Shown here: positions 24,251-31,551 of the stretch, piece after piece
Numbering within the stretch: position 1 is the first letter of the stretch
How the letters are laid out: every line of letters begins with the position of its first letter
NCBI GenBank assembly: GCA_025363775.1
Contig: JANYLG010000075.1
Location: 1-36,280 of the forward strand
Reading direction: 5' to 3'
Source: Acidobacteriota bacterium
GTDB taxonomy: Bacteria > Acidobacteriota > Vicinamibacteria > Vicinamibacterales > Fen-181
Length of the DNA: 36,280 nucleotides
The notes under the pieces: generated by a model
The model's database searches: none
What the model saw: the letters and a program-made list of their open reading frames with translations, nothing else
Told to the model about the DNA's origin: nothing
Position numbers and translations under genes: made by a program

Positions 24251-24343
24251 GGATCGGCTGGCGGTGGTATGCCGCCCTGCCTCGAACCCCCTCGTAACCC
24301 TCTGCGCTGCCCGGCAAGCGGGCGGCCCGCCGCGAGTCATCAG

Positions 24344-25567
24344 ATGTCTACCATTCGTCCGTTCGCCGCACTCAGACCCTCGCCCTCGAACGTCGACCGT
24401 GTGTCCGCCGTCCCCTACGACGTTGTCAATGCCGAAGAAGCGAGGGCCATGGCCGCTGGCAACCCCCTCAGCTTCCTGCACATCTCGCGCGCGGAGATCG
24501 ATCTCCCGCCCGCGACCGACCCGTACTCGGACGCTGTCTACAACAAGGCGCTCGAGAACTTCACCAACCTCCGCCAGGCGGCGCCGCTGGTGGTCGAGGA
24601 TGTGCCCGCCGTGTATTTCTACCGGCTGAAGATGGGGAATCACTGCCAGACCGGCCTGGCCGCCTGCTACTCGGTGGGCGAGTACGACATTGACCTGATC
24701 AAGAAGCACGAAAAGACGCGGCGCGACAAGGAAGACGACCGCACGCGGCACATCAGCACGCTTCGCGCGCAAACCGGGCCCGTCTTCCTGACCTATCGCG
24801 CGTCGAAGGCGATTGACGCGGTCGCGGACACGGTGACAGCCGGTGCGCCACTCTTCGATTTCGAATCCGCCGACCAGGTGTGCCACACCGTCTGGAAGGT
24901 GACGGGCGCGGACCTCGCCGCGGTCGTCAAGGCGTTTGGCGAGCTGCCGTGTGTCTACATTGCGGACGGGCATCACCGGGCCGCCAGCGCGGGCCGGACG
25001 CGGAAGTACCTGGCCGAGAAGTCGCCGACGACCGACAACAGCGAGGCCAACTGGATGCTGGCTGTCGCGTTCCCGGACAACCAGACCCAGATCCTGCCCT
25101 ACAACCGGGTGGTCAAGGACCTGGCCGGCAAGACGCCCGAGGCATTCCTCGCCGACCTGAAGACGCGCGTCAAGGTGGCGGACGGGACGCCGAACCCGAC
25201 GAAGAAGGGCGAAGTGGGGATGTACCTGGCCGGCAGCTGGTATACGCTGTCTCTCGAGGCGGCTGCCGGCGCGACCGATATCGGCAGCACGCTCGACGTG
25301 AGCCTGCTGCAGGACCAGGTGCTCTCGCCGCTGCTCGGCGTCGGCGACCCGCGGACCGACAAGCGGATCGACTTCGTCGGCGGCATCCGCGGAACCTCGG
25401 AGCTCGAGAAGCTGGTGAACGGGCGCAAGGCAGCGGTGGCGTTCTCGATGTTCCCCGTGGGCGTCAACGACCTGATTCGAATCGCGGATGCCGGCGAGAT
25501 CATGCCTCCCAAGTCCACTTGGTTCGAGCCGAAGCTTCGTGATGGACTCCTCACTCATCTCATCTAA
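24344..25567 (+). CDS. DUF1015 family protein
   Basis: 'IRPFAALRPSPSNVDRVSAVPYDVVNAEEARAMAAGNPLSFLHISRAEID', 'VYIADGHHRAASAGR'; upstream of serA/serC. Confidence 0.87.
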   Translation: MSTIRPFAALRPSPSNVDRVSAVPYDVVNAEEARAMAAGNPLSFLHISRAEIDLPPATDPYSDAVYNKALENFTNLRQAAPLVVEDVPAVYFYRLKMGNHCQTGLAACYSVGEYDIDLIKKHEKTRRDKEDDRTRHISTLRAQTGPVFLTYRASKAIDAVADTVTAGAPLFDFESADQVCHTVWKVTGADLAAVVKAFGELPCVYIADGHHRAASAGRTRKYLAEKSPTTDNSEANWMLAVAFPDNQTQILPYNRVVKDLAGKTPEAFLADLKTRVKVADGTPNPTKKGEVGMYLAGSWYTLSLEAAAGATDIGSTLDVSLLQDQVLSPLLGVGDPRTDKRIDFVGGIRGTSELEKLVNGRKAAVAFSMFPVGVNDLIRIADAGEIMPPKSTWFEPKLRDGLLTHLI

Positions 25568-25603
25568 CCGGACGCGGATTTCCGCGGCCAAGGATGGACA
25601 GCC

Positions 25604-26869
25604 ATGAAAGTGCTTGTTGCTGACAAGTTCGAAAAGAGCGGAATCGAGGGGTTGACGACGGCAGGGTGCAAGGTCATCTTCGAGCCAGACCTGAAGGACG
25701 CCACCCTCACGGAAGCCATCGGGAAGACGGGAGCCGAGGTGCTCGTCGTGCGCTCCACGCAGGTGACCGAGGCGATGATGGACGCGGGCAAGCTCGCGTT
25801 GATCGTCCGCGCGGGTGCCGGGTACAACACGATTGACGTGAAGGCGGCCAGCAAGCGCGGCATCTATGTGTCGAACTGCCCGGGGAAGAACTCGATCGCG
25901 GTGGCGGAGCTGGCCTTCGGCCTGATCCTGGCCCTCGACCGCCGTATCCCGGACAACGTCGTCGAGTCACTGCGCGGCAAGTGGAACAAGAAGGAGTACT
26001 CGAAGGCGAGGGGGTTGTATGGCGCCACGCTCGGCATCCTCGGCTTCGGAAAGATCGGGCAGGAGCTGGCCAAGCGCGCGATGGCGTTCGGCATGAACCT
26101 GGTGATCTGGAGCGAACTCGGCGTGCGCGTGGACCGCGATGCCATCCCTGTGGACCTGCCGCTGCTGTTGCAGGTCAGGCCTGGTTCTGGCGTGCTCATC
26201 GAAGAGCGCATCACCGTCGTCGAGACGCCGGGCGAGGTTGCGGAGAAGTGCGACATCCTGAGCATCCATCTCGCGTCGAGCGCGGCGACGAAGAACATCG
26301 TCAACGCTGACGTCATCGGCAAGCTGAAACCGGGTGCGTTCGTCATCAACACGGCGCGCGCGGATGTGATGGACTACAAGGCGCTGGCGAAGGCGGTCAA
26401 GGAGAAGGGCGTCCGCGCGGGGCTGGACGTCTACCCGGACGAGCCGACGAGCGCAACCGGCGACTTCGCCCAGGAACTGCTGGGGCTGCCCGGCGTGTAC
26501 GGCACGCACCATATCGGCGCCTCGACCGACCAGGCGCAGGAAGCGATTGCGGCCGAAACCGTGCGGATCGTGAAGACCTTCAAGGAGACCGGCCGCGTCC
26601 CGAACGTCGTCAATCTCGCCAAGAAGACGCCGGCGAAGTACTCGATGATCGTCCGCCACAAGGACCAGCCTGGGGTACTCGCCTGCGTGTTCGGGAAGCT
26701 TGGAAGCGCCAAGATCAACGCCCACGAGACCGAAAACATCGTCTTCGAGAACGCCGAAGCGGCCATCGTCCGTATCAACGTGGACAAGCAGCCGCCCGCC
26801 GATCTGGTGGCGTCGCTCGAGACGTGCGACGGCATCATCGAGGTGGCCGTGGTCGAGCTGGCCGGGTAA
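25604..26869 (+). CDS. serA: D-3-phosphoglycerate dehydrogenase with C-terminal ACT domain
   Basis: 'LVVRSTQVTEAMMDAGKLALIVRAGAGYNTIDVKAASKRGIYVSNCPGKNSIAVAELAFGLILALDRRIPDN', 'ILGFGKIGQELAKRAMAFGM', 'VINTARADVMDYKAL', 'THHIGASTDQAQEAIA'. Confidence 0.93.
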   Translation: MKVLVADKFEKSGIEGLTTAGCKVIFEPDLKDATLTEAIGKTGAEVLVVRSTQVTEAMMDAGKLALIVRAGAGYNTIDVKAASKRGIYVSNCPGKNSIAVAELAFGLILALDRRIPDNVVESLRGKWNKKEYSKARGLYGATLGILGFGKIGQELAKRAMAFGMNLVIWSELGVRVDRDAIPVDLPLLLQVRPGSGVLIEERITVVETPGEVAEKCDILSIHLASSAATKNIVNADVIGKLKPGAFVINTARADVMDYKALAKAVKEKGVRAGLDVYPDEPTSATGDFAQELLGLPGVYGTHHIGASTDQAQEAIAAETVRIVKTFKETGRVPNVVNLAKKTPAKYSMIVRHKDQPGVLACVFGKLGSAKINAHETENIVFENAEAAIVRINVDKQPPADLVASLETCDGIIEVAVVELAG

Positions 26870-26925
26870 GGTATCCTGTAAGGCCTTTTGTCCATTCATC
26901 GATTTTTTTCGAGGAGATCATCCCA

Positions 26926-28032
26926 ATGGTGACGACCACCCGAGTCTTCAACTTCGCGGCCGGACCTGCCGTCCTGCCGCTTCCCGTGCTCGAAGAGGCG
27001 CAGCGCGACCTGGTGGCGCTGCCCGGCGTGGGGATGTCGGTGCTCGAGATCAGCCACCGGTCGAAGGCGTTCGAGGCGATTATCGGCGAGTGCGAGGCCA
27101 ACATGCGCAAGTTGGCCGGCATTCCCGACAACTATCACGTGCTGTTCCTGCAGGGGGGCGCAACCACCCAGTTCTCGATGGTGCCGATGAACCTGCTGCC
27201 AGCCGGTTCGTGGGCGGACTACATCGTGACCGGCGCCTGGTCGTCCAAGGCGGTCAAGGAAGCGAAGAAGGTCGGCGCCGTCAACGTGGCGTTCGACAAC
27301 AAGGCCGAGAACTACCTCCGGATCCCGAAGAAGGAAGAGCTGAAGCTGACGCCTGGCGCCGCCTACGTGCACATCACGACCAACGAGACGATCCACGGCG
27401 TCGAGTTCCACCAGTTGCCCGACTTCGGCGACGCGACGGTGGTGGCGGACACCTCCTCGCACATGTTCAGCCGCCCGATCGACGTCACGAAGTACGGGTT
27501 GATCTACGCGGGCGCGCAGAAGAACATCGGCCCGGCGGGTGCGACGATCGTCATCGTCCGCGACGACCTGGTGAAGAAGGCCGCCGAGCGGCCGTCGTAC
27601 GCGAACCTCCCGGTCATGCTGCAGTACGGCACGCACGTTCCCGAGAAGTCGCTCTACAACACGCCGCCCTGCTTCACGATTTACACGATCGGGCTGGTGA
27701 TGAAGTGGCTGGTGGCAATCGGCGGCCTCGAGGCGATCGACAAGATCAACGGGCGCAAGGCCGGGAAGCTGTACGCGGAGATCGACCGCACCGGTTTCTA
27801 CCGTGGCCACGCGGCGAAGGACTGCCGCTCGCGGATGAACGTCACCTTCCGGCTGCCGAACGAGGAACTCGAGGCGAAGTTCGTGAAGGAATCGAAGGCG
27901 GCGGGCCTCGACGGCCTGAAGGGCCATCGCTCGGTGGGCGGCCTGCGCGCGTCGATTTATAACGCGTTCCCGGAGGAAGGCGTGGACGTCCTCGTGTCGT
28001 TCATGCAGGCTTTCGAGAAGAAGAACGGATAG
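26926..28032 (+). CDS. serC: Phosphoserine aminotransferase
   Basis: 'VFNFAAGPAVLPLPVLEEAQRDL', 'SVLEISHRSKAFEAIIGECEANMRKL', 'FLQGGATTQFSMVPMNLL', 'IYAGAQKNIGPAGATIVIVRDDL'. Confidence 0.96.
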   Translation: MVTTTRVFNFAAGPAVLPLPVLEEAQRDLVALPGVGMSVLEISHRSKAFEAIIGECEANMRKLAGIPDNYHVLFLQGGATTQFSMVPMNLLPAGSWADYIVTGAWSSKAVKEAKKVGAVNVAFDNKAENYLRIPKKEELKLTPGAAYVHITTNETIHGVEFHQLPDFGDATVVADTSSHMFSRPIDVTKYGLIYAGAQKNIGPAGATIVIVRDDLVKKAAERPSYANLPVMLQYGTHVPEKSLYNTPPCFTIYTIGLVMKWLVAIGGLEAIDKINGRKAGKLYAEIDRTGFYRGHAAKDCRSRMNVTFRLPNEELEAKFVKESKAAGLDGLKGHRSVGGLRASIYNAFPEEGVDVLVSFMQAFEKKNG

Positions 28033-28040
28033 GCCGTCGT

Positions 28041-28275: not shown

Positions 28276-30153
28276 ATGCCACCACACACAGAGACCGTTC
28301 GCGAACGCGCCGAGCAGTTCCTGAAGGTTGCGGCCGACTTTCACCTGGGGAGCCTCCTCACGGAGTCGTCGCATCCGCGCACGGTCGACTTGAGCGACGT
28401 GGCTCGCGGGAGCGCCGAGGCGGGCCTTGCCGCGCTGTTCGACGTGGACCGCGACGTGGTCGCGAAGTACGTCGCCTGGTCGCAGACCGGGCAGCCCGGA
28501 CAGATGGCTCGGGCCGCTCTCGAGACACTGAGACGAGGGGGGCGCATCTTTTTCACCGGCTGCGGCGCCACCGGGCGACTCAGCATCCAGCTCGATTCCA
28601 TCTGGCGCGCCTTCTGGCAGGACCGGCGGGCGGGCGGGAACGCCGCGCCCTCTCCCGATGCGTGGGAAGACCGCACGCGAAGCGTGATGGCGGGCGGCGA
28701 CTATGCGCTGATCAAATCGGTCGAAGGCTTCGAGGATTTCGCGCCTTTCGGCCGCAAGCAGATTGCAGACATGGGCCTCGTAGCGGGCGACGTGGTCTTC
28801 GCGATTACGGAGGGCGGAGAAACGTCCTTCGTGATCGGCACCGCCTGGCAGGGCGTCGAAACCGGTGCGCGCGTCTTCTTCGTCTACAACAACCCGGACG
28901 ATGTTCTCCGCGACGTGCGGCGCAGCCGCGAGGTGCTGGACGATCCACGCATCGAGAAGATCAACCTGACCTCCGGTCCCATGGCGGTCACGGGCTCGAC
29001 GCGGATGCAGGCGACGAGCATCGAGTTGCTGGCCATGCTGACCGTCCTCGAGGTGGTGCTGCGCGATCTCCTGGGCGCGAAGGGCCGGCTCGGCGCCGGG
29101 GTCGGGAGGGCCGAGGACGTGGTGGCCGAGATGAGGACCGCGATCGAAGAGGTTCACGCCGAACTCTCGAGCTCACGCGTCCTGCAGCCGCTCGCGCGGA
29201 TCGCGGAGACGGAGGAGCGGGTCTACCGCGGCGGCGCACGGACGTCCTACTTTGCTCATTCGCTGGGCATCGACGTGCTCACAGACACGACCGAGCGCAG
29301 CCCCACGTTCTGCACGCCGTCGTTCAGGAAATGGGACGACACCGAGGCGTCCGAGTCGTGGGCCTTCCTCTTCACCCCGGAGGAGACGACCGAGGCGGCG
29401 TGGCCCGCCCTGCTGCGCCGCGCCCCGCAGACCATCGAATGGACCGAGGAGGACCTCCGCGCGCTCCTCGACGACGAGGCGGCGGCCCGGCAGGCGGTAG
29501 TCCTCCGCGATATCGGGCATCGCGACCTGATGCGGTTCCGCATCGGATTGGACGGCCTTGCATACAGGCCGATCCGAAAGGGCGACGCCATCACCCTCGT
29601 CGTGTCCGAGGCCGACTTGCTCCTGCTGGCCGCCCCCGGCGCGACCTTCGCGAGTTGCCTGATGACCGCGTCAGCACGCGGGGCGGACGGGATGCTGATC
29701 GCGGTCGGCCGGCGGGAAGCCATCGACGGCCTGGCCTCGTCGGCCGGGCGCCGGCTGGCCAGCCGGTTCGTGGCATTGACCGTTCCCGACACACCATTCC
29801 TGCTGAATCCGATGACCCGGGTCGGCGTGAAGATGCTGCTGAACGCGCTGTCCACCTGCACGATGGTGCGCCTGGGGCGGGTGCTGGGCAACCGGATGAT
29901 CTGGGTGGTCCCGAGCAACCTGAAGCTGATCGACCGGTCCACGAGGTACGTCCGGGACCTGGCGAAGGTATCGTACGAGCAGGCGTGCCACATGCTGTTC
30001 GAGGTCATCGACTACGTCGAGCCTCGCCGCATCGCGGGAAAGGCCTATCCGCCGCCGGTCGGCGTGGCCACGATGCGCCTGCGCCATCAGATCGGATTGA
30101 AAGAGGCGGAGGCCAGGATTCTCGACGAGCTGTCGATCGCACCCGGCCCCTGA
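28276..30153 (+). CDS. Two-SIS-domain MurQ/glucokinase-regulatory-protein-like protein
   Basis: 625 aa from ATG 28276; 'FFTGCGATGRLSIQLDS', 'MAGGDYALIKSVEGFEDF', 'AVTGSTRMQATSIELLAM'; second half ends with 'LLNALSTCTMVRLGRVLGNRMIWVVPSNLKLIDRS'. Confidence 0.75.
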   Translation: MPPHTETVRERAEQFLKVAADFHLGSLLTESSHPRTVDLSDVARGSAEAGLAALFDVDRDVVAKYVAWSQTGQPGQMARAALETLRRGGRIFFTGCGATGRLSIQLDSIWRAFWQDRRAGGNAAPSPDAWEDRTRSVMAGGDYALIKSVEGFEDFAPFGRKQIADMGLVAGDVVFAITEGGETSFVIGTAWQGVETGARVFFVYNNPDDVLRDVRRSREVLDDPRIEKINLTSGPMAVTGSTRMQATSIELLAMLTVLEVVLRDLLGAKGRLGAGVGRAEDVVAEMRTAIEEVHAELSSSRVLQPLARIAETEERVYRGGARTSYFAHSLGIDVLTDTTERSPTFCTPSFRKWDDTEASESWAFLFTPEETTEAAWPALLRRAPQTIEWTEEDLRALLDDEAAARQAVVLRDIGHRDLMRFRIGLDGLAYRPIRKGDAITLVVSEADLLLLAAPGATFASCLMTASARGADGMLIAVGRREAIDGLASSAGRRLASRFVALTVPDTPFLLNPMTRVGVKMLLNALSTCTMVRLGRVLGNRMIWVVPSNLKLIDRSTRYVRDLAKVSYEQACHMLFEVIDYVEPRRIAGKAYPPPVGVATMRLRHQIGLKEAEARILDELSIAPGP

Positions 30154-30207: not shown

Positions 30208-31551
30208 CTATTTTTTCACGAACTTCTTCACGAACTTCTTCACGAACTGCCCCACCAGCTGTTCCAGGTTCGGCGTGCCGATTTCCTGCAGCTGGTAGGT
30301 CACGCGCACCGTCGGCTTCTTGATCTTGACGATGCGGTTGAGGTCGATTGGCGTGCCGATGACGACGACATCGCATGGCACCTTGTTGATCGTCGCCTCG
30401 AGGTCTTTCACCTGTTCGGTGCCGTAGCCCATCGCGGGCAGCAGCATCCCGATTCCCGGGTACTTCTTGTACGTCTCGGTGATCGACCGCACGGTGTAGG
30501 GCCTCGGGTCCACCAGCTCGCTCGCGCCGTACTTCAGCGCGGCGACCACGCCGGCGCCGATCTTCATCTCGCCGTGCGTGAGCGTCGGCCCGTCCTCGAC
30601 CACCAGCGCCCGCTTGCCGGTCAGCCGCTCCGGGTGGTCGATGAAGATGGGCGATACGGCATCGACCACCACCGCCTTCGCGTTCACCGTCCGGATGTTC
30701 GCCCGCAACTGGTCGACGGCCTTCGGATCGGCGCTGTCGATCTTGTTGATGATGACGATGTCCGCCATGCGGAGGTTGGCCTCGGCCGGGTAGTAGGACA
30801 GCTCGTTGCCGACGCGCAGCGGGTCGGCCACGACGATCGCCAGGTCGGGCTTGTAGAACGGCATGTCGTTGTTGCCGCCGTCCCACAGGATGACGTCCGC
30901 TTCGGCCTGAGCCTGCTCGAGGATGGCGCCGTAGTCCACGCCGGCGTAGATGATGATCCCCTCGACGATGTGCGGCTCGTACTCCTCCATCTCCTCGATG
31001 GTGCACTTGTGCTTCTCGAGGTCGGCCAGGCTCCCGTAGCGCTGCACCTTCTGCTTCTCGAGGTCGCCGTACGGCATCGGGTGGCGGATGGCGGCAACCT
31101 TCAGCCCGTGCTGCTGCAGCAGGTGCGCGACGCGGCGGCTGGTCTGGCTCTTGCCCGCTCCGGTGCGCACGGCGCAAACGGAGATCACCGGCTTCGTGCT
31201 CTGGATCATCGTCGGCTGCGCGCCGAGCAGCTTGAAGTGCGCCCCGGACGCATTGACGATCGAGCTCCGGCTCATCACGTAGTTGTAGCGCACGTCGCTG
31301 TAGGCGAAGACCACCTCTTCGACCTCGTGCTTGCGGATCAGCGATTCGAGCTGCGACTCGGCCACGATCGGGATCCCCTTCGGGTAGAGGCGGCCGGCGA
31401 GCGATGCCGGGTACTTCCGCCCGTCGATGTTCGGGATCTGGGTGGCGGTGAACGCCACGACGTCGTAGCGCTCGTTGTCGCGATAGACGGTGTTGAAATT
31501 GTGGAAGTCGCGCCCGGCGGCTCCCATGATGATGGTCTTGATCCGGTGCAT
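30208..31551 (-). CDS. Cyclic 2,3-diphosphoglycerate synthetase-like P-loop protein
   Basis: 'MHRIKTIIMGAAGRDFHNFNTVYRDNERYDVVAFTATQIPNIDGR', P-loop 'SVCAVRTGAGKSQTSRRVA', 'VILWDGGNNDMPFYKPDLAIVVADPLR', 'VIINKID'. Confidence 0.85.
   Translation of the reverse strand: MHRIKTIIMGAAGRDFHNFNTVYRDNERYDVVAFTATQIPNIDGRKYPASLAGRLYPKGIPIVAESQLESLIRKHEVEEVVFAYSDVRYNYVMSRSSIVNASGAHFKLLGAQPTMIQSTKPVISVCAVRTGAGKSQTSRRVAHLLQQHGLKVAAIRHPMPYGDLEKQKVQRYGSLADLEKHKCTIEEMEEYEPHIVEGIIIYAGVDYGAILEQAQAEADVILWDGGNNDMPFYKPDLAIVVADPLRVGNELSYYPAEANLRMADIVIINKIDSADPKAVDQLRANIRTVNAKAVVVDAVSPIFIDHPERLTGKRALVVEDGPTLTHGEMKIGAGVVAALKYGASELVDPRPYTVRSITETYKKYPGIGMLLPAMGYGTEQVKDLEATINKVPCDVVVIGTPIDLNRIVKIKKPTVRVTYQLQEIGTPNLEQLVGQFVKKFVKKFVKK
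30211..30246 (-). repeat. 3 x 12-bp in-frame tandem repeat encoding FVKKFVKKFVKK at the extreme C-terminus
   Basis: Minus-strand units TTCGTGAAGAAG, TTCGTGAAGAAG, TTCGTGAAAAAA directly before the TAG stop. Confidence 0.95.

Follow-up and report, generated by a model that had tools for sequence, protein, structure and literature searches.

A two-SIS MurQ/GKRP-like protein of Acidobacteriota with an apparently composite phosphosugar site

The window, that is, the whole 36,280-nucleotide stretch of Acidobacteriota DNA analysed here, encodes a 625-aa protein with two SIS units, in which the catalytic glutamate missing from the first half is probably supplied by the second half (E340). The site is apparently composite, with every position filled: E150 and E153, the T178–T183 loop, E340, and N548, K550 and R554 near the C-terminus are all invariant, and the arrangement looks like a covalent MurQ pseudo-dimer. 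The original prediction was that the protein appears to lack one MurQ catalytic glutamate and is hence a sensor. The first part of this claim stands for the first half but not for the whole protein, because SIS-2 carries the invariant E340 at the position of Glu348 of GKRP, a residue that contacts the ligand. For the same reason, the step from one lost glutamate to a sensor does not follow, and a role as a regulator rather than an etherase is not established.

Reading frame, domain layout and fold

The open reading frame runs from an ATG at 28276 to the stop at 30153. In-frame starts are also present upstream (e.g., GTG at 28039); the ATG was taken as the start, given that homology sets in a few residues after it and that the 97% identical protein of a congener likewise starts with an ATG there. 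The occurrence of orthologues at 55–97% identity in related genomes, together with 80 loci in other phyla, indicates that the family is real and not a chance frame. The motifs GCGATGRL, VEGFEDF and GSTRMQ and the MurQ-like C-terminal block, on which a MurQ-like protein of about 625 aa had been proposed, are all present.

Comparison with the profiles of the MurQ and GCKR families gave a mixed outcome. The Pfam model GKRP_SIS_N matched above its cut-off (8e-8, 32.5 bits vs 27), GKRP-like_C, which describes the lid, remained below it (15.9 vs 27.7 bits), and GKRP_SIS_2 did not match the 625-aa protein. The MurQ models of NCBIfam also fell below their curated cut-offs (TIGR00274/PRK05441; 115.8 vs 302 and 141 vs 168 bits), and they align in two separate pieces, the first half and the lid. 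The same pattern was obtained with phmmer against the PDB, where MurQ matched residues 23–247 and 518–578, and GKRP matched residues 514–592. A profile search confirmed that SIS-1 and the lid are MurQ-like (PDB 4s12, E = 1.6e-28). SIS-2 taken alone had no significant local hhalign match to either MurQ or GKRP. By sequence, the nearest relative of the protein is MurQ, while its structural class is GKRP-like.

The AF2 model built from 85 sequences (pLDDT 92.6, pTM 0.94; it supersedes one from 8 sequences with pLDDT 68.6) has low confidence in loop 342–344, directly after E340. When it was compared with the PDB using Foldseek, the top seven matches were all full-length GKRP chains (E from 8e-21 to 1e-17, alignments of ~655–670 columns, TM ~0.63–0.72), followed by MurQ 4s12 (3e-9) and then by GlmS/GFAT; the GKRP-like two-SIS architecture anticipated in the original prediction is thus borne out by the predicted structure. 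As in GKRP (GCKR; PDB 4BB9, 4BBA, 3W0L, 4LC9), a single chain carries two SIS units and one C-terminal lid, although identity in the Foldseek alignment is only ~16%. In contrast, MurQ (TIGR00274; PDB 4S12, 4LZJ, 1NRI) has a single SIS in about 300 aa, and one complete site is expected in the 625-aa protein. The coordinates of these features are given in Table 1.

Table 1. Features of the two-SIS protein and of associated loci; positions without a locus prefix refer to the window
Feature	Position	Strand	Basis
Two-SIS MurQ/GKRP-like protein, 625 aa	28276..30153	+	ORF; orthologues; AF2 model pLDDT 92.6; best PDB match GKRP
SIS-1 region, residues 18–248, predicted phosphosugar pocket	28327..29019	+	hhalign vs MurQ profile, 99.8% probability, E 1.5e-27; AF2 secondary structure
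GCGATGRLSIQLDSIW (95–110), with retained phosphate loop and a residue other than Glu at 109, the Glu83 position	28558..28605	+	Residue 109 in 85 sequences
VE150GFE153D; E153 = MurQ Glu114 = GKRP Glu153	28720..28737	+	Both Glu residues invariant (85 sequences)
T178EGGETS184 loop	28807..28827	+	T178, E179, E182 and T183 invariant
SIS-2 region, residues 321–512, degenerate, without phosphate loop or EGxED	29236..29811	+	Sequence; AF2 secondary structure; weak profile similarity alone
D337TTE340RSPTF345, SIS-2 Glu at the MurQ Glu83/GKRP Glu348 position	29284..29310	+	Invariance; best GKRP match; hhalign -glob
C-terminal lid, residues 516–582, with N548, K550, L551 and R554	29821..30021	+	Matches MurQ and GKRP lids; invariant
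BadF kinase–MurQ fusion or shorter like frame	L026:9011-10822, L028:11826-13187, L029:11958-13616, L031:11676-13685		Domains confirmed for L031

Residues of the putative composite site

In the first half, the position of MurQ Glu83, defined as ten residues after the Ser/Thr of the loop, corresponds to residue 109, where Ile, Ala, Val, Met, Leu or Thr occurs but Glu in none of the 85 sequences; the nearby D107 varies as well (D/V/E/A), and the sequence that follows GCGxTGR reads LSI(Q/L)LxSIW. Glu114, on the other hand, is kept as the invariant E153, so the original prediction was right on both glutamates of this half. The TEGGET loop resembles the SxSGET phosphate loop of SIS enzymes and differs from its counterpart in GKRP, SVGLS.

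The second half contains the motif DTTE340RSPTF, which is invariant in the 89 collected copies; its ERSPTF portion is also kept in ten of ten members compared from a divergent Acidobacteriota branch. In the AF2 model, the motif lies after the first strand of SIS-2 (323–327), at the end of the next helix (331–341). It can be lined up without gaps with GVE348CIHTF of GKRP (whose sequence was checked against the PDB) and with ASECPPTF of MurQ, in which E83CPPTF resembles E340RSPTF. A global alignment of the C-terminal half (hhalign -glob) paired it with MurQ AEIPPTF, and a PSSM scan of GKRP found its best match on GVECIHTF, which ranked 1 of ~475 positions with profiles of 15 and 18 residues and 2 with 24 residues. 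By itself, the sequence resemblance of the motif is suggestive rather than strong, as 13–14% of shuffles score equally high; the assignment of E340 is based on the global alignment, the topology, the invariance and the PSSM scan.

The residues of GKRP that form the F1P/F6P site are Glu348 and His351 of SIS-2, residues of SIS-1 including Glu153, and Asn512, Lys514, Leu515 and Arg518 of the lid (PMC4109836). Of these, Glu153, Glu348, Asn512, Lys514, Leu515 and Arg518 correspond to E153, E340 (placed by alignment), N548, K550, L551 and R554 in the two-SIS protein, all six invariant in 85 sequences that are 39–69% identical to the window protein and have a mean column identity of 50%. His351 is replaced by P343, which is also invariant and is matched by a Pro in MurQ; the adjacent R341 is specific to the family and equally invariant. 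SIS-1 of GKRP has no equivalent of Glu83, the same as that of the two-SIS protein. In MurQ, by contrast, Glu83 and Glu114 belong to the same SIS unit, whereas here E153 occurs only in SIS-1 and E340 only in SIS-2.

A precedent for a site shared between two SIS units is offered by NagS, a GlcNAc-6P dehydratase of Streptomyces related to MurQ, in which Arg64 comes from the adjacent monomer and Glu94 from the same monomer; Arg64 lies ten residues after Ser54, the spacing that separates MurQ Glu83 from its loop serine (PMC12680351). Glu94 would correspond to E153 and Arg64 of the neighbour to the position of E340. NagS differs in being a single-SIS homodimer from Streptomycetaceae with a known substrate and with Arg at the shared position, where the two-SIS protein has Glu340.

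These correspondences are consistent with a MurQ-type dimer that would have been fused covalently and would have kept only one of its two symmetric active sites. In MurQ homodimers, the Glu83 of each site would be contributed by the other subunit. In the fused protein, SIS-1 would hold the phosphosugar through the GCGxTGR loop, the TEGGET loop, E150/E153 and GSTR, SIS-2 would reach across with E340, which we infer to point into the SIS-1 pocket, and the single lid would close the site with N548, K550 and R554. The first lid, and one site along with it, would have been lost; this second site would have included the Glu83 position of SIS-1 as well as the EGxED and phosphate loop of SIS-2, which would then have decayed together.

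Distribution and genome context of the family

The family is present in at least five phyla. Together, the window and its 60 near relatives contributed eight full-length copies and one fragment, the named loci belonging to Acidobacteria of the Vicinamibacterales. Species-representative genomes added 80 loci from Verrucomicrobiota (mostly subdivision 3/Limisphaerales), Armatimonadota, Planctomycetota/Phycisphaerae, Lentisphaerae and Acidobacteriota. A wider sample of 297 Acidobacteriota genomes had the gene in 28, most of them in the more divergent branch. Several members of this branch (L104:5944-8145, L110:5951-8116, L112:2462-4699 and L103:5751-8066) have a hydrophobic, signal-peptide-like N-terminus, which in L104 is MKITKRNKFLQTRLAGILIIPTIVVGILFAPAIFSQ and is not seen in L106–L109; these starts suggest that a sugar-phosphate-type protein may be exported there. 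In a tree of SIS-1 plus the lid, the two-SIS proteins sampled group together, separate from MurQ (support 99/97). They coexist with true MurQ in many genomes. In the tree, the branch of human GKRP (5.4) is too long for it to be placed.

The genome from which the window derives has one other relative, an ordinary MurQ of 324 aa, encoded on contig 162 next to a BadF/NagK-type kinase. With a threshold of 265 bits, canonical MurQ was counted in 23 of the 50 carrier genomes, within ~10 kb of the two-SIS gene in nine of these, and none was found in the other 27 or in the 21 divergent-branch genomes tested. All eight Vicinamibacterales carriers (the window genome and seven more) have it. AnmK was clear in 21 of the 50 carriers (a 22nd match was weak), five of them without MurQ, and was found neither in 22 Vicinamibacterales genomes nor in 21 of the divergent branch. 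Single absences carry little weight, since most of these genomes are MAGs.

MurNAc-salvage genes occur in the fetched flanks of eight of the 11 Planctomycetota loci (L091, L094, L095, L096, L099–L102), the neighbours being AnmK, canonical MurQ, NamZ, a sodium/solute symporter, and a beta-lactamase-fold hydrolase or NAGPA. In four Limisphaerales/Verrucomicrobiota loci, a BadF kinase–MurQ fusion, or a shorter frame of this kind, lies ~2 kb downstream (Table 1). Among the 105 immediate neighbours, the only recurrent families were NamZ (4), AP_endonuc_2 (4), AnmK (3) and SSF (3), and none of them is conserved throughout the two-SIS family. In two Armatimonadota loci (L030:2561-5594 and L040:9818-12776), a beta-phosphoglucomutase-like HAD hydrolase follows the two-SIS gene, as does a GH65 gene in convergent orientation, whose family was confirmed for L040.

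In the window, genes for DUF1015, a 2-hydroxyacid dehydrogenase (serA) and serC stand in a row upstream (24269–28032, +), an apparent serine-synthesis operon. At 30208–31551 (−), convergent with the two-SIS gene and adjoining arginine-synthesis genes, there is a gene that by eye resembles cyclic 2,3-diphosphoglycerate synthetase (Pfam cobW only, no NCBIfam match); it is also downstream in one congener (L114). These neighbours were rejected as partners: a similar order was seen in this congener but not in the other carriers viewed. AnmK as a universal partner was likewise discarded, being absent from the genomes searched in the Vicinamibacterales, to which the window belongs.

Possible functions and evolutionary meaning

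The reading that we favour, giving it roughly even credence, is that of a phosphosugar enzyme tied to MurNAc-6P metabolism, which would act as a lyase or etherase on MurNAc-6-phosphate or a close relative, beside or instead of ordinary MurQ. It draws on the two-SIS layout, the invariant site residues, their agreement with the ligand contacts of GKRP, the MurNAc-salvage genes near the loci of two phyla, and the presence of the gene in genomes where no canonical MurQ was found; both the persistence of catalysis and the substrate are inferred. Against it stand the lack of AnmK in the Vicinamibacterales genomes searched and of any neighbour conserved throughout the family. The invariance of the site is no proof of catalysis, because GKRP, regarded as non-catalytic, has the same two glutamates. 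Moreover, canonical MurQ in the window genome and in the seven related Vicinamibacterales carriers would make an etherase activity redundant there, and replacement of MurQ as the sole role was rejected for the window on account of the copy on contig 162. A GKRP-type regulator in bacteria is a real possibility, though short of probable: the composite pocket would bind a phosphosugar (e.g., MurNAc-6P or GlcNAc-6P) without turnover, and the loaded or the empty protein would inhibit a sugar kinase, for which AnmK in Planctomycetota and the BadF-type kinase of the fusion in Limisphaerales are proposed as candidates. The full-length GKRP fold, the complementary loss shared with GKRP (the Glu83 equivalent gone from SIS-1 but present in SIS-2), the sugar-kinase genes among the few recurrent neighbours and the coexistence with MurQ in 23 of 50 carriers agree with this; however, most lineages, the window included, have no kinase neighbour, AnmK is missing from the two groups named above, and the His351 contact is a Pro, as in MurQ. 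Neither genome context nor co-occurrence decides between regulator and etherase.

A phosphosugar enzyme unrelated to MurNAc, such as a dehydratase or isomerase with incidental MurNAc neighbours, seems unlikely to us. NagS, which acts on GlcNAc-6P, shows that a MurQ relative can change its chemistry (PMC12680351), R341 and the TEGGET loop set the family apart from MurQ, and the HAD and GH65 neighbours in Armatimonadota would fit, but the recurrent neighbours in two phyla are MurNAc-salvage genes. That the gene is a degenerate MurQ duplicate with no defined role, or a scaffold that has lost the ability to bind sugar phosphates, is very improbable; SIS-2 is strongly diverged and only 8 of 60 near relatives have a full-length copy, but long frames are intact in all 89 collected copies, and the site is invariant in 85 sequences from several phyla against the 50% mean column identity.

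GKRP is a textbook metabolic regulator, the partner of glucokinase in vertebrates; the two-SIS family is bacterial, and no description of bacterial two-SIS GKRP homologues was found in the openly accessible literature searched. To judge from the title of Veiga-da-Cunha 2009, as cited in PMC3613411, GKRP is believed to descend from bacterial MurQ. A bacterial family that shares the layout of two SIS units and a lid, with its composite site intact, makes the order of events testable, with fusion and the loss of one site coming first, and the loss of catalysis and the gain of a kinase partner later. The case also calls for caution with fused dimers: a residue that one half lacks can come from the other, so checking catalytic residues domain by domain misleads. 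We tentatively suggest a place in evolution for this family, which is widespread in bacteria and apparently uncharacterised, shares the true architecture of GKRP, is linked to MurNAc salvage in two phyla or more and keeps one composite MurQ-type site. It may stand for the bacterial stage that gave rise to kinase regulation of the GKRP type, whether it is a single-site enzyme or a kinase regulator that responds to MurNAc-6P.
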